Source: Rhodobacterales bacterium HKCCSP123
GTDB lineage: Bacteria > Pseudomonadota > Alphaproteobacteria > Rhodobacterales > Rhodobacteraceae
DNA length: 64,000 bases
Assembly (NCBI GenBank): GCA_015689745.1
Contig: WVSO01000012.1
Coordinates: forward strand, 1 to 64,000
Direction: 5' to 3'
The notes beneath the pieces are model-generated. The model saw nothing but the letters and a program-made list of their open reading frames with translations. It did no database searches and had not been told where the DNA came from. The position numbers and the translations under genes are program-made. Positions 17,563 through 41,352 of this stretch are shown piece after piece. Position 1 is the first letter of the stretch, and each line of letters starts with the position of its first letter.

Positions 17563-19722
17563 TCAGCCGAAATGCGTGGCGAAGGCCCCGCGCCAGAGGG
17601 CGGTCAGCTCGGCCATGGGCGCCTCGGACGACCCGAGGCGGAGCATCTCGCCGCCGACGCGGCCGATGGTGACGAGCGGAACACCGGCCTGGCCTGCCGC
17701 GACCATCAGCGCCTCGGCCTTGTCGAAGCTGGTGGAGATCAGGTAGCGGCCCTGGTCCTCGCCGAAGAGGGTGGCGGTGTCGGAGGAATCGACGCTCAGG
17801 CCCACGCCGCCCGCGACCGCCATCTCGAAGGCGGCGAGCGCAAGGCCCCCGTCCGAAAGGTCGGTGCAGGCGCCGATCCACTGGCGGTTGGCGCGGATGA
17901 ACTCGCCCGCGCGGCGCTCGGCCTGAAGGTCGACATGGGGCGCGTCGCCGTCCTCGCGGTTGAAGACCTCGTAGAGAAGCGCGGACTGGCCGAGGTGGCC
18001 GGTCGTCTCGCCCACGAGAAGCAGGACGTGACCGTCGCGGGTGGTGTCGCCGATCAGGTCGTCGAGACTGTCGAGCAGGCCCACGGCCCCGATGGTGGGG
18101 GTGGGCAGGATGCCCTGGCCGTCGGTCTCGTTGTAGAGCGAGACATTGCCCGAGACGATGGGCATGTCGAGCGCGGCGCAGGCTGCGCCGATGCCTTTGA
18201 TGGCGCCGACGAACTGGCCCATGATCTCGGGCTTCTCGGGGTTGCCGAAATTCAGGTTGTCGGTGGTCGCAAGCGGCCGCGCGCCGACGGCGCAGAGGTT
18301 GCGGAAGGCTTCGGCCACGGCCTGCTTGCCACCCTCGACCGGGTTCGCCTTGACGTAGCGCGGCGTCACGTCCGAGGTGAAGGCGAGTGCCTTGCCGGTG
18401 CCGTGCACCCGCACGACGCCCGCGCCGAGGCCGGGGGCGACGACCGTGTCGGCCATGACCATGTGGTCATATTGCTCGTAGACCCAGGCGCGGCTGCAGT
18501 AGTTGGGCGAGGAAATCAGGGCCTTCAGCGCATCGATCGGATCGACCTCCGGCACCGGGTCCATCGGGGCGGCGGGGGCTGTCTCGACCCAGGGGCGGTC
18601 GTATTCCGGCGCCTCCGAGGAAAGTTTCGAGAGCGGCAGGTCGGCCTTGGTCTCGTTGCCGTGGATGATGAGGAAACGGTCCTCGGGGATGGTTTCGCCG
18701 ACGATGGCGAAATCGAGGTCCCATTTCTCGAAGATGGCGCGGGCGACGTCCTCTTTCTCGGGGTTGAGGACCATGAGCATCCGCTCCTGGCTCTCGGAGA
18801 GCATCATCTCGTAGGCCGTCATCGCGTCCTCGCGCTGGGGGACGTGGTCGAGCGTCAGCTTGATGCCGAGCTTGCCCTTGTCACCCATCTCGACGGCAGA
18901 GCAGGTGAGGCCCGCAGCCCCCATGTCCTGAATGGAAATGACCGCGCCGGTCTGCATCAGCTCGAGGCAGGCCTCGAGGAGGCGCTTCTCGGTGAAGGGG
19001 TCGCCGACCTGGACGGTGGGGCGCTTTTCCTCGATCGTGTCGTCGAATTCCGCGCTGGCCATGGTCGCGCCGCCGACGCCGTCGCGGCCGGTCTTCGCGC
19101 CGAGATAGACCACGGGCATGCCGACGCCGGAGGCGGCGGAGTAGAAGATCTTGTCGGCGTCGGCCAGGCCCGCCGCGAAGGCGTTCACAAGGCAGTTGCC
19201 GTTGTAGGCGGCGTGAAAGCGGACCTCGCCGCCGATGGTGGGCACGCCGAAGCAATTGCCGTAGCCGCCGATCCCCTCGACGACGCCGTGGACGAGTTGC
19301 CGGGTTTTCGGGTGGTCCTTTTCACCGAAGCTGAGCGCGTTCATCGCCGCGATGGGGCGCGCGCCCATGGTGAAGACGTCGCGCAGGATGCCCCCGACGC
19401 CGGTCGCCGCCCCCTGGTAGGGCTCGATGTAGGAGGGGTGGTTGTGGCTTTCCATCTTGAAGACCACGGCCTGACCGTCGCCGATATCGACCACGCCCGC
19501 GTTCTCGCCGGGGCCGCAGATGACCTGCGGACCCGAGGTGGGCAGGGTGCGGAGCCATTTCTTCGAGGATTTGTAGGAACAATGTTCGTTCCACATGGCC
19601 GAGAAGATGCCAAGCTCGGTGAATGTCGGCTCGCGGCCGATGATCTCGCGGATGCGGTCGTATTCATCCGGCTTGAGCCCGTGGGCGGCAATCAGCTCGG
19701 GCGTGATGGCTGGCTCGGTCAT
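17563..19722 (-). CDS. purL: Phosphoribosylformylglycinamidine synthase subunit PurL
   Basis: ATP-dependent synthetase subunit converting FGAR to FGAM in purine biosynthesis, acting with PurQ and PurS. At 719 residues it is the small-type PurL. Catalytic and nucleotide-binding blocks are [25 protein letters not shown] (~residues 90-115), [26 protein letters not shown] and, in the C-terminal half, SGNVSLYNE and [16 protein letters not shown]. The start at 19722 matches the family N-terminus. It leads the purL-bolA-grxD group but with a 117-bp gap before bolA. Confidence 0.97.
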
Positions 19723-19782: not shown

Positions 19783-20280
19783 TCAGAGCGCGCGGCGAAA
19801 GGTCAGGGAGGTGGGGCCGTCATGGCCCGGATGCGTGGTGGCCGCTGTCTGGACGAACCCCATCGCGGCGAAGGCCGCGTGGTTCTCGAGCAGCTCCACG
19901 CGTGACTGCAGCTCGAGCACGGTCGCGCCGAGGGCGCGGGCGCGGGCTGCGGCGGCCTCGATCAGCGCGCGGGCGAGCCCCTGGCCGCGCTGCGGCGCAG
20001 CGACAGCGAGCTTGCCGATGTAGTAGGCATCGGGCGTGAGGGTGCCGAACAGGCATCCGACAGGCATGCCCGCGCGGCGGATGAGGAACAGGTCCTCTTC
20101 CGCCGCCTTGACCTTCAGAGCGTCGATGGTGAGCCGCGTCATCGAGGAGGGCGGGTCGATGCGCCCCTCCATATAGGCGAAACTCGTGGACAATAACGCG
20201 TGAAGCGCTTGGAAATCGCTGAAATCAGGGGGATTTGTTTCGACCTTGGAAACGATCATCACAAGACCTGTCGGCGTCAT
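19783..20280 (-). CDS. GNAT family N-acetyltransferase
   Basis: A 165-residue acetyl-CoA-dependent acyltransferase. The acetyl-CoA pyrophosphate loop is VAAPQRGQGLARALIEAA (motif A, residues ~95-112), preceded by the YIGKLAV strand and followed by GATVLELQSRVELLENHAAFAAMGF (motif B). The substrate is unknown. The ATG at 20280 lies immediately after the intrinsic terminator of the candidate sRNA, so the gene would need its own signals. An internal ATG at 20259, preceded by AGG at -9, is an equally plausible start (158 residues). Confidence 0.8.
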   Translation of the reverse strand: MTPTGLVMIVSKVETNPPDFSDFQALHALLSTSFAYMEGRIDPPSSMTRLTIDALKVKAAEEDLFLIRRAGMPVGCLFGTLTPDAYYIGKLAVAAPQRGQGLARALIEAAAARARALGATVLELQSRVELLENHAAFAAMGFVQTAATTHPGHDGPTSLTFRRAL

Positions 20281-20283
20281 CGC

Positions 20284-20311
20284 AAAAAAAAGGCCGAGAC
20301 GAATCTCGGCC
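20284..20311 (-). terminator. Intrinsic terminator of the candidate sRNA / LysR transcript
   Basis: Perfect 8-bp stem GGCCGAGA-TTCG-TCTCGGCC (UUCG tetraloop) followed by eight consecutive T on the minus strand. It is the strongest intrinsic terminator in this part of the window and lies 165 bp beyond the LysR stop, too far for a simple gene end. Confidence 0.85.
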
Positions 20312-20364
20312 GAAGTCCAACAGGGAGGTAATGGAACGGTAATCTCTCACCATGCGTTCCATTG
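20284..20364 (-). ncRNA. Candidate trans-acting small RNA (~80 nt)
   Basis: Reading the minus strand: a promoter-like TTGATC (20398-20393), a 17-nt spacer and TATTTC (20375-20370), predicting a start near 20364. A 9-bp hairpin follows at once, AATGGAACG / CGTTCCATT (20363-20355 / 20338-20330, 16-nt loop). Next is an unpaired ~18-nt segment containing ACCTCCCTG, and then a canonical intrinsic terminator, GGCCGAGA-TTCG-TCTCGGCC with eight T (20311-20284). There is no convincing ORF in the transcript. The C-rich single-stranded segment could pair with Shine-Dalgarno sequences, as in Hfq-dependent sRNAs. It lies between an LsrB/VtlR-like regulator and a GNAT gene, transcribed in their direction. 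Promoter, fold and terminator agree on one unit, but expression is inferred. Confidence 0.6.
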
Positions 20365-20475
20365 ATGCTGAAATAGGCAGCAGTTGCGACTCGATCAAGG
20401 CAAATGTCGCCGCGCCGCCGCAAAGCGGATATGCCTGTGGCGCATAGCACACAGGCAAGGCCGGGTCGGCTGCGA

Positions 20476-21390
20476 TCAGATGGAGGGGTCGGCTGCACTT
20501 TCCTTCTGCCTGCGACGGTAGGCGATCACCTCTTCGGCGACGAAATCCCGGAAGACCTCGACGCGCTTGGACTGGCGAAGCTCCTCGGGGTAGGCGAGGA
20601 AGACGGGCACCTCGGCGGATTGCGTCTCGGGCAGGACGCGGACGAGGTCGGGGAAATCCTGCGTCAGGTAATCGGGCAACACGCCGATGCCGAGATCGTG
20701 GATCACGGCCTGAAGCACGCCGAAATAGTTATTGACCGTCAGCGTCGACCCGATGTCGTAGCTCATCAGTTCGCGCACCAGGATCGCGCCTGCGCTGACC
20801 TGGGCAGAGCTGGCGTTCTGGCTGATGAGGCGGTGGTTCGACAGGTCGTCGAGCGTCTGCGGCTCGCCGTTCTCGGCCAGGTAGCGGGGTGAGGCGTAGA
20901 GGCGCATGTTGATCGTCATGAGGCGGCGGCGGATCAGGTCGGCCTGGCTCGGCTCCTTCATGCGGATGGCGACATCGGCCTCGCGCATGGGCAGGTCGAG
21001 CAGCCGCTCCTCCAGCATGAGATCGATCTTGAGGTCGGGGTACTTCTCGTAGAGCGCGGGCAGGCGCGGAGCAAGCCAGAGCGAACCGAAGCCGATGGTC
21101 GTGGTGACGCGCAGCTCGCCGAAGACCTCTTCCTCGCTGTCGCGGATGCGGGCGGCGGCGGCTTCCAGCCGCTTGGACATGTGGCGCGTGGCGTCGAAGA
21201 GCAACTCGCCCTGTTCGGTCAGGATCAGGCCGCGGGCGTGGCGGTGGAACAGCGTGGTGTTCAGCCCTTCCTCGAGCGCGCGAATCTGGCGGCTGACGGC
21301 GGATTGCGACAGGTGCAGCGTATCGCCAGCATGGGTCAGGCTCCCCGCGTCGGCGACCGCGTGAAAGATGCGCAGCTTGTCCCAATCCAT
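20476..21390 (-). CDS. LysR-type transcriptional regulator, LsrB/VtlR-like
   Basis: A 304-residue LysR regulator with an N-terminal winged HTH (MDWDKLRIFHAVADAGS, then LHLSQSAVSRQIRALEE) and a C-terminal periplasmic-binding-like effector domain (~90-295). From memory, the N-terminal 70 residues, including WDKLRIFHA, THAGD-LHLSQSA-SRQ and LFHRHARGLILTEQGELL, closely match LsrB of Sinorhizobium and VtlR of Brucella/Agrobacterium, regulators of redox and envelope functions and of AbcR small RNAs. The start at 21390 is preferred over ATG 21396 because AGGAG lies 7 nt upstream of it. It is divergent from the large oxidoreductase gene and is followed by a candidate sRNA. Confidence 0.85.
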   Translation of the reverse strand: MDWDKLRIFHAVADAGSLTHAGDTLHLSQSAVSRQIRALEEGLNTTLFHRHARGLILTEQGELLFDATRHMSKRLEAAAARIRDSEEEVFGELRVTTTIGFGSLWLAPRLPALYEKYPDLKIDLMLEERLLDLPMREADVAIRMKEPSQADLIRRRLMTINMRLYASPRYLAENGEPQTLDDLSNHRLISQNASSAQVSAGAILVRELMSYDIGSTLTVNNYFGVLQAVIHDLGIGVLPDYLTQDFPDLVRVLPETQSAEVPVFLAYPEELRQSKRVEVFRDFVAEEVIAYRRRQKESAADPSI

Positions 21391-41262: not shown

Positions 41263-41352
41263 TGGCGGAGAGACAGGGATTCGAACCCTGGGTGGACTTG
41301 CGCCCACAACGGTTTTCGAGACCGCCCCGTTCGACCACTCCGGCACCTCTCC
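41263..41352 (-). tRNA. tRNA-Ser(CGA)
   Basis: Read on the minus strand: acceptor GGAGAGG pairing with the 3' end CTCTCC-G-CCA (CCA encoded), a D-arm with GTGGTCGAA, an anticodon stem-loop GCGGT-CTCGAAA-ACCGT with anticodon CGA, a long class II variable arm (about 18 nt), and a T-arm CAGGG-TTCGAAT-CCCTG. The long variable arm confirms tRNA-Ser. It decodes UCG. Confidence 0.96.

Follow-up and report, generated by a model that had tools for sequence, protein, structure and literature searches.

The window, a stretch of 64,000 nucleotides (contig WVSO01000012.1 of Rhodobacterales bacterium HKCCSP123), carries on its minus strand genes for a LysR-type regulator, a small RNA (sRNA), a GNAT acetyltransferase and PurL, and the coordinates given below for parts of the locus refer to this strand. 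The regulator (20476-21390, Pfam HTH_1 and LysR_substrate) consists of 304 amino acid residues and contains no cysteine. The sRNA gene of about 80 nt spans positions 20284-20364, and its terminator begins 165 bp beyond the LysR stop at 20476. The GNAT gene (19783-20280, with the start codon uncertain between 20280 and 20259) separates the sRNA from purL (17563-19722, NCBIfam PurL), which is the syntenic downstream gene. The GNAT gene is found in the genus loci L001-L012, with no match at E<=1e-8 in L018-L047. The comparison within the family covers 42 loci: 12 from the genus, identified by DNA match and counting the window itself, plus the 30 with the highest scores to the SorY model RF02651. 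Alignment A1 comprises 34 of these 42 loci; L022, L025, L026, L029, L034, L036, L037 and L042 were omitted as unlinked, short or divergent.

The 5' hairpin of the sRNA (20330-20363) has the arms AATGGAACG (20363-20355) and CGTTCCATT (20338-20330), and the gene ends in an intrinsic terminator (20284-20311), GGCCGAGA-TTCG-TCTCGGCC-T8, with an 8-bp stem and a TTCG loop. These arms, the terminator, the eight T and the 165-bp distance had been described in a first-pass annotation of this DNA and are all exact on the sequence, as is the segment ACCTCCCTG at 20329-20321. The start, then put at ~20364, agrees with the position 20363-20366 obtained by homology to the published start of R. sphaeroides SorY. 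The conserved, anti-Shine-Dalgarno-like stretch ACCTCCCTGTTGGACTT is located at 20313-20329. All 34 aligned SorY-type family members have the same letters at its first 16 positions, which read ACCTCCCTGTTGGACT.

The 81-nt sRNA has a predicted fold energy of -29.5 kcal/mol (z -3.61), and 1 of 200 shuffles folds as well. The hairpin had been described as perfect over 9 bp. This is correct for the complementarity of the arms, but the minimum-energy fold forms only eight of the nine base pairs, together with an inner 5-bp helix. Similarly, the CCTCCC segment, described as unpaired, is open in the centroid fold, while in the minimum-energy fold two of its C are weakly paired; exactly four of its six positions are predicted to be open in 30 of 34 relatives. 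In the homologous intergenic regions the core occurs in all 34 aligned members, and predicted folds give the terminator stem in 34 of 34 and a closed hairpin at the 5' end, 6 bp or longer, in 30 of 34. It is important to note that a single terminator is at chance level (the scan gave 2 in 5 kb against 2.5 expected). Judged by comparison with these relatives, the minus-strand sRNA gene at about 20364-20284 is real and conserved.

The promoter, CTTGAT-N16-CCTATTT (20371-20399, with its parts at 20399-20394 and 20377-20371), is of the RpoH type. It had previously been read as TTGATC-17-TATTTC. These letters (20398-20393 and 20375-20370) and the 17-nt spacer are present, but the sigma-70 scan made no promoter call there, and the sigma-70 reading was dropped in favor of the RpoH type. 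The pattern CTTG-N17-19-C(C/A/T)TA is found in 35 of the 42 family loci. We take RpoH to be the sigma factor of SorY, to which the promoter sequence points likewise, and we infer the same for the strain of the window. The consensus of RpoH1 from S. meliloti is CTTGAA-N16-CCTATAT (PMC8844928).

Comparison with the Rfam families, which the first-pass annotation had proposed as a check, gave SorY (RF02651) as the best match of the sRNA, with 57.2 bits and E 6.3e-11 over the full length of the model (positions 1-83 of 83). At relaxed thresholds the runners-up are SorX (RF02784, 42.0 bits against a gathering score of 46.6) and mmgR/suhB (RF00519, 30.7 bits against 41). At gathering scores no family is called at the place of the sRNA. 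The sole gathering-level Rfam match of the window is a tRNA at 41266-41352 on the minus strand. A DNA match to the sRNA is present in 13 of 13 genus genomes, the window's own included, in G009 only through a likely SorX-type copy. RF02651 matches 138 of 149 family genomes at E<=0.001, which is not a count of SorY alone because the model also matches SorX-type copies. The sRNA is named here a counterpart of SorY and not a formal member, since its score misses the SorY gathering score of 111 bits, which only one of the 149 family genomes (G063) passes.

The match in G063 (1632645-1632727) adjoins the published SorY start of R. sphaeroides 2.4.1 at 1,632,642 (PMC6238624), and G063 was therefore taken as this strain. 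Its locus (L048) has a LysR gene upstream of the sRNA, the product of which is 76% identical to the window LysR, and purL downstream. The gene order LysR, sRNA, purL, bolA, grx4 is common to G063 and the window, and in both a POR/DUF6537 gene is divergent from LysR. The sRNA of R. sphaeroides has its own promoter and takP as a target (PMC6238624); according to PMC8307010 it is one of the sRNAs under RpoE, RpoHI and RpoHII, shows interaction with Hfq and acts on the mRNA of a malate transporter. By sequence and genomic position, the sRNA of the window is a counterpart of SorY. The candidate RNA of the first-pass annotation is a conserved sRNA gene, and one of a known kind.

The window genome contains a second copy of the SorX type at C116:7391-7465 (G000; L014, L065). 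Its neighbours, xthA-like and ribA-like frames recognized by eye, resemble the SorX site of R. sphaeroides. A search of 12 genomes with RF00519 gave no match over the cut-off. Weak mmgR matches were not used alone because this model matches 8 of 14 control genomes too, one of them over the cut-off. The RFM SmelC671 of S. meliloti has CUCCCUGU as a single strand (PMC3927594). SisA of Caulobacter, an RNA related to SorY, represses through the motif UUUCCUCCCU (PMC12559287). By analogy, SisA-like repression through the core motif would be the likeliest mode of action of the window sRNA.

The regulator had been annotated as LsrB/VtlR-like, and three comparisons agree with this. Its best PDB match is 9hh1 with 256 bits (next 111), which is the LsrB structure of A. 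tumefaciens (PMC11975290). When LsrB was used as the query in reverse, the top match was the window LysR in its own genome (256 bits, runner-up 119) and the SorY-linked LysR in G063 (250 bits, runner-up 126); the test thus covers the PDB in the forward direction and these two genomes in reverse. In a tree of 126 rows, a quick version with several long outgroup branches, LsrB is located in one clade with the class-wide homologues, the window LysR among them, and eight further LysR proteins fall outside it (outgroup branch support 91). On these comparisons, the window LysR is an LsrB/VtlR orthologue.

The four columns that hold cysteine in the LsrB fragment are occupied by V, V, V and A in the window LysR. 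A thiol mechanism like that of LsrB therefore cannot apply unchanged, and, given the absent cysteines, the signal of the window regulator may differ from that of redox-sensing LsrB. A section heading in PMC11975290 reads 'LsrB is a LTTR unique to Rhizobiales'. The presence of an LsrB homologue at E<=1e-40 in 120 of 192 class genomes argues, together with the tree, against this heading.

In all of the 42 family loci but two, the unlinked L022 and L036, the sRNA is preceded by the regulator gene in the same orientation (40 of 42), so the physical linkage noted earlier for the window is conserved. A putative LsrB-type operator is found at 20422-20446. It includes the inverted repeat TATGC-N7-GCATA (20446-20430), the right arm of which starts GCATATCCGCTTT (20434-20422, about -71 to -59). 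The upstream pattern shared by the family loci is AGCTATGC-N7-GCATAGCGGC..ATGC. The repeat ATGC-N7-GCAT is exact in 30 of the 42 loci and has one mismatch in 10, against 0.1 and 1.25 in mononucleotide shuffles. A readable promoter is present in 39 loci, and in 38 of these 36 or 37 nt lie between GCAT and the -35 element, against 26 in the remaining one; the other three loci had no readable promoter. By comparison, the spacing between LysR stop and repeat varies from 1 to 170. In six of seven SorX-type stretches, or five of six sites, since L014 and L065 are the same one, there are two or more mismatches to the repeat, and in L016 there is one; for the C116 copy, the 300 nt upstream are free of operator-like repeats (3 mismatches). 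The occurrence of the repeat at a fixed spacing from SorY-type promoters, and near chance at SorX-type copies, is a new observation.

The published VtlR/LsrB box is GCAT-N3-TG-N3-T (PMC7486931). In the promoter of AbcR1 it occupies -61 to -49 (PMC8844928), and NfeR1 has its LsrB site between -72 and -57 (PMC10746234). The window site GCATATCCGCTTT agrees with this box at six of its seven defined positions and does not contain it in full. Every one of the 40 family repeats has the G and the final T of the box, 3 have its first T, and 2 contain it whole. The repeat ATGC-N7-GCAT is likely to be a control site resembling the LsrB operator. The operator-like pattern has nine matches in the window genome and none in the reversed control. 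One operator-like palindrome ATGC-N7-GCAT, at G000:C108:12086-12110 (L346/L347), lies upstream of an NMT1_3-family solute-binding protein, which we read as TRAP-type. It can be set beside SorY, the published target of which is also a transporter, and could be either a direct target of the regulator or a chance match. Another operator-like site, ATGCAGTTTCTGCATAGCGG at G000:C105:37914-37933 (L345), lies upstream of an ORF including RuvA.

The same arrangement is found outside the family. LsrB homologues at E<=1e-40 occur in 117 genomes there, of which the best 107 were used and the 10 weaker left out. A covariance model built from the 34 SorY sequences gave 56 matches at E<=1 in 52 of these 107 loci (43 at E<=0.1 and 29 at E<=0.01), all downstream of the LsrB homologue and on its strand. 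The core CCTCCCTG is found up to 800 bp downstream in 62 of the 107 loci, and in none of the 107 antisense or in the 800 bp upstream. It was not found downstream in the other 45, and 10 of the 107 loci have less than 800 bp of downstream sequence. The repeat was scored in the 62 loci with the core and in 44 of the 45 without it. Between the stop and the core it is exact in 41 of the 62 loci and has one mismatch in 17 (58 of 62). Dinucleotide shuffles gave 0.35 exact and 9.05 one-mismatch cases (9.4), and the upstream region 1 and 9. The full published box is present at the right arm in 13 of the 58 class repeats, against 2 of 54 in the control, for which the left arm was read in reverse; over the whole stretches it occurs downstream in 26 of the 107 loci, upstream in 8 and antisense in 7. 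The loose box GCAT-N4-G-N3-T does not discriminate and was given no weight, being present in the upstream stretches (up to 800 bp, L114-L220) of 82 of the 107 loci and in the downstream stretches of 49.

The common core of the class RNAs is ACGTCTCCCAGACGTGAAGCCTCCCTGTT, followed by ACTTG and the terminator. Predicted folds of the 62 loci show a hairpin just 5' of the core in 59 and a terminator stem in 47, by our own criterion. Both partners differ in five pairs of the class hairpin, where shuffles give 2.7 and 10 of 500 reach this count. However, 220 of 500 shuffles attain the covariation score of the hairpin, and RNAalifold returned no structure for the class alignment. The SorY-type alignment has one terminator pair with both sides changed. 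Covariation adds little, and for this reason sequence conservation, position and strand were relied on.

A reverse test started from the RNA pattern GACGTNAAGCCTCCCTGTT and gave at least 118 loci, in a sample that is not random and includes many MAGs; 80 loci were used in two comparisons and all 118 in the counts of linkage and repeat. Among the matches listed, 94 have at least 1200 bp of upstream sequence, and an LsrB homologue is located there on the same strand in 77 of them and not in 17. A repeat with at most one mismatch is found in 71 of 81 linked intervals among the matches listed. In Pelagibius the gene is 2029 bp away. All 15 hand-picked named genomes are linked, among them Azospirillum brasilense, Thalassospira australica, Magnetovibrio blakemorei and Reyranella soli, and 14 of them have the exact repeat, with Neoroseomonas terrae as the exception. 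An Rfam scan of 18 of 27 class loci gave SorX, SorY or mmgR matches downstream in 12, none over the cut-off. Eight miRNA-like Rfam rows in L127 were all below the cut-off and were taken for chance matches, and an apparent exact repeat in L167 was an artefact of an empty stretch. The class-wide cassette of LsrB homologue, repeat and sRNA is a new observation.

Some variants of the arrangement were also seen. In the tree group around LsrB (branch support 90, not strong), the CCTCCCTG core is absent in 15 of 16 loci besides LsrB; in some members of the group the repeat is kept, and C-rich stretches and terminator-like hairpins, recognized by eye, come after it. Nine loci (L151, L154, L169, L174, L178, L187, L192, L205 and L208) have an exact downstream ATGC-N7-GCAT without the CCTCCCTG core, and several of them contain other C-rich stretches and terminator-like hairpins; these loci possibly hold AbcR-like or diverged sRNAs. 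At L121:2580-3190 (G300) three tandem CCTCCCTG sRNA copies lie downstream of one LsrB homologue, and L118, of the same family, likewise has three model matches.

The first-pass annotation had proposed an AbcR counterpart linked to its regulator. In A. tumefaciens, abcR1 and abcR2 occupy the place downstream of the LsrB/VtlR gene (PMC7486931), and the corresponding placement is found in 40 of the 42 family loci. The position, the type of operator and the kind of seed thus speak for a counterpart, but membership in the AbcR family (RF02345, ar15/AbcR) does not follow. RF02345 has no match at E<=1 in the window genome and is absent from the region matches at E<=10, where a weaker match of the same clan could be hidden beside suhB. 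Its sole match in the same search, a weak one of 20.3 bits, is in G063, and 8 of 14 control genomes match as weakly; over sets of 60 and 385 genomes it has no match anywhere, controls included, so that this result carries no information. The AbcR family is described as having partial homology to SuhB RF00519 (PMC7143759), a model that also weakly matches SorY, and a common descent of AbcR and SorY is plausible.

These comparisons allow us to propose, with good confidence, that the locus encodes a SorY-type trans-acting sRNA, in which an RpoH-type promoter and an LsrB-type activator would drive an anti-Shine-Dalgarno RNA. Transcription from the promoter would give an RNA of about 80 nt ending at the TTCG terminator. 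The LsrB/VtlR orthologue encoded upstream, we infer, would bind the ATGC-N7-GCAT repeat at about -83 to -59 and activate or tune the sRNA promoter, in the way that rhizobial LsrB acts on AbcR1 and NfeR1. The sRNA, probably together with Hfq, would present ACCUCCCUG to Shine-Dalgarno regions and lower the translation or stability of its presumed targets in the window strain, metabolite-transporter mRNAs, under stress (takP in the case of R. sphaeroides SorY).

It is important to compare this proposal with other explanations. The passages on SorY in PMC8307010 and PMC6238624 name sigma factors and not a LysR regulator, which counts against an input from the regulator. An alternative sigma factor could act alone on a SorY-type sRNA, with LysR controlling the divergent POR/DUF6537 gene, its neighbour within 1.5-kb flanks in 31 of the 42 loci, and with the repeat serving something else. 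The RpoH-type reading of the promoter and the place of SorY among the sRNAs under RpoE, RpoHI and RpoHII (PMC8307010) are consistent with this. However, the spacing of the repeat is fixed to the sRNA promoter and not to the LysR gene, and the repeat recurs with the sRNA in other families while remaining at chance level at SorX-type copies, so that control by a sigma factor alone is unlikely.

Membership of the sRNA in the AbcR (ar15) family proper could be suggested by its anti-Shine-Dalgarno motif, the similar operator and a place relative to the LsrB/VtlR gene like that of abcR1 in A. tumefaciens (PMC7486931). It is very improbable in view of the missing RF02345 match (genome at E<=1; region at E<=10, where clan overlap could hide one), and the SorY, SorX and mmgR models match instead. 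The element might also be nothing but the LysR transcript's 3' end, or a SorX-like RNA derived from a 3'UTR without its own promoter, since it lies on the same strand 165 bp past the LysR stop and the related SorX is 3'UTR-derived (PMC6238624). However, SorY in R. sphaeroides has its own promoter and start (PMC6238624), and the CTTG..TA promoter is conserved with the repeat at a fixed distance, which makes this explanation the least credible of all. The SorY-type sRNA with joint control by an RpoH-type promoter and the LsrB-type regulator is therefore preferred.

The recurring order of regulator, site and RNA suggests that the SorY and AbcR circuits share one old design. We lean, somewhat beyond an even chance, to the broader proposal of an ancestral alphaproteobacterial cassette consisting of LsrB/VtlR, an ATGC-N7-GCAT operator and a CUCCC anti-Shine-Dalgarno sRNA. 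Its present forms would be SorY in Rhodobacteraceae, an unnamed ACGUCUCCCAGACGUGAAGCCUCCCUGUU-core RNA, seen in Azospirillum, Thalassospira, Roseomonas relatives, Reyranella and others, and AbcR1 in Rhizobiales. SorY would then be an sRNA of the LsrB regulon, and LsrB would not be an invention of the Rhizobiales, which speaks against the printed heading in PMC11975290. The proposal would join the singlet-oxygen sRNA SorY of phototrophs with the LsrB/VtlR-AbcR circuit of plant symbionts and pathogens, and it predicts an LsrB-type regulator as a second input to SorY. It also points to a widespread sRNA that is uncalled by Rfam cut-offs in the 18 class loci scanned. In the open-access papers searched, SorY and LsrB occur together only in an unrelated Salmonella study, though the original SorY and SorX papers may remark on the LysR neighbour. 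No text was found there with SorY and either AbcR or VtlR as whole words, a query for which 'AbcR1' as a word is out of scope. The string CCUCCCUG together with sRNA gave only work on human cells, and a broader query gave none.

The window sRNA and SorY of R. sphaeroides (RF02651) have in common the architecture, the stretch ACCTCCCTGTTGGACTT and the LysR and purL neighbours, and SorY has a promoter of its own. The window sRNA differs from SorY in the sequence of the 5' hairpin, in its score (57 bits against a cut-off of 111) and in the GNAT gene before purL. SorX (RF02784) and MmgR/SisA-D (alpha-r8, RF00519) resemble it in the CCTCCCT core followed by GACTT and the terminator. However, SorX is derived from a 3'UTR (PMC6238624), unlike the SorY-type gene, and the alpha-r8 genes mostly adjoin an FGase gene (PMC12559287), unlike the window sRNA. 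The LsrB/VtlR-AbcR1 module of Agrobacterium, Sinorhizobium and Brucella has, like the window, an LsrB-type regulator, a downstream anti-Shine-Dalgarno sRNA gene and a GCAT-type site upstream of the promoter, but its sRNA belongs to a different family by Rfam. The window regulator differs from rhizobial LsrB in lacking the redox cysteines, and its neighbours are the sRNA and the POR/DUF6537 gene, not trxB. In S. meliloti, AbcR1 needs LsrB and AbcR2 needs RpoH1 (PMC8844928), so that the two inputs are split over two sRNAs, whereas the SorY-type promoter seems to join both.
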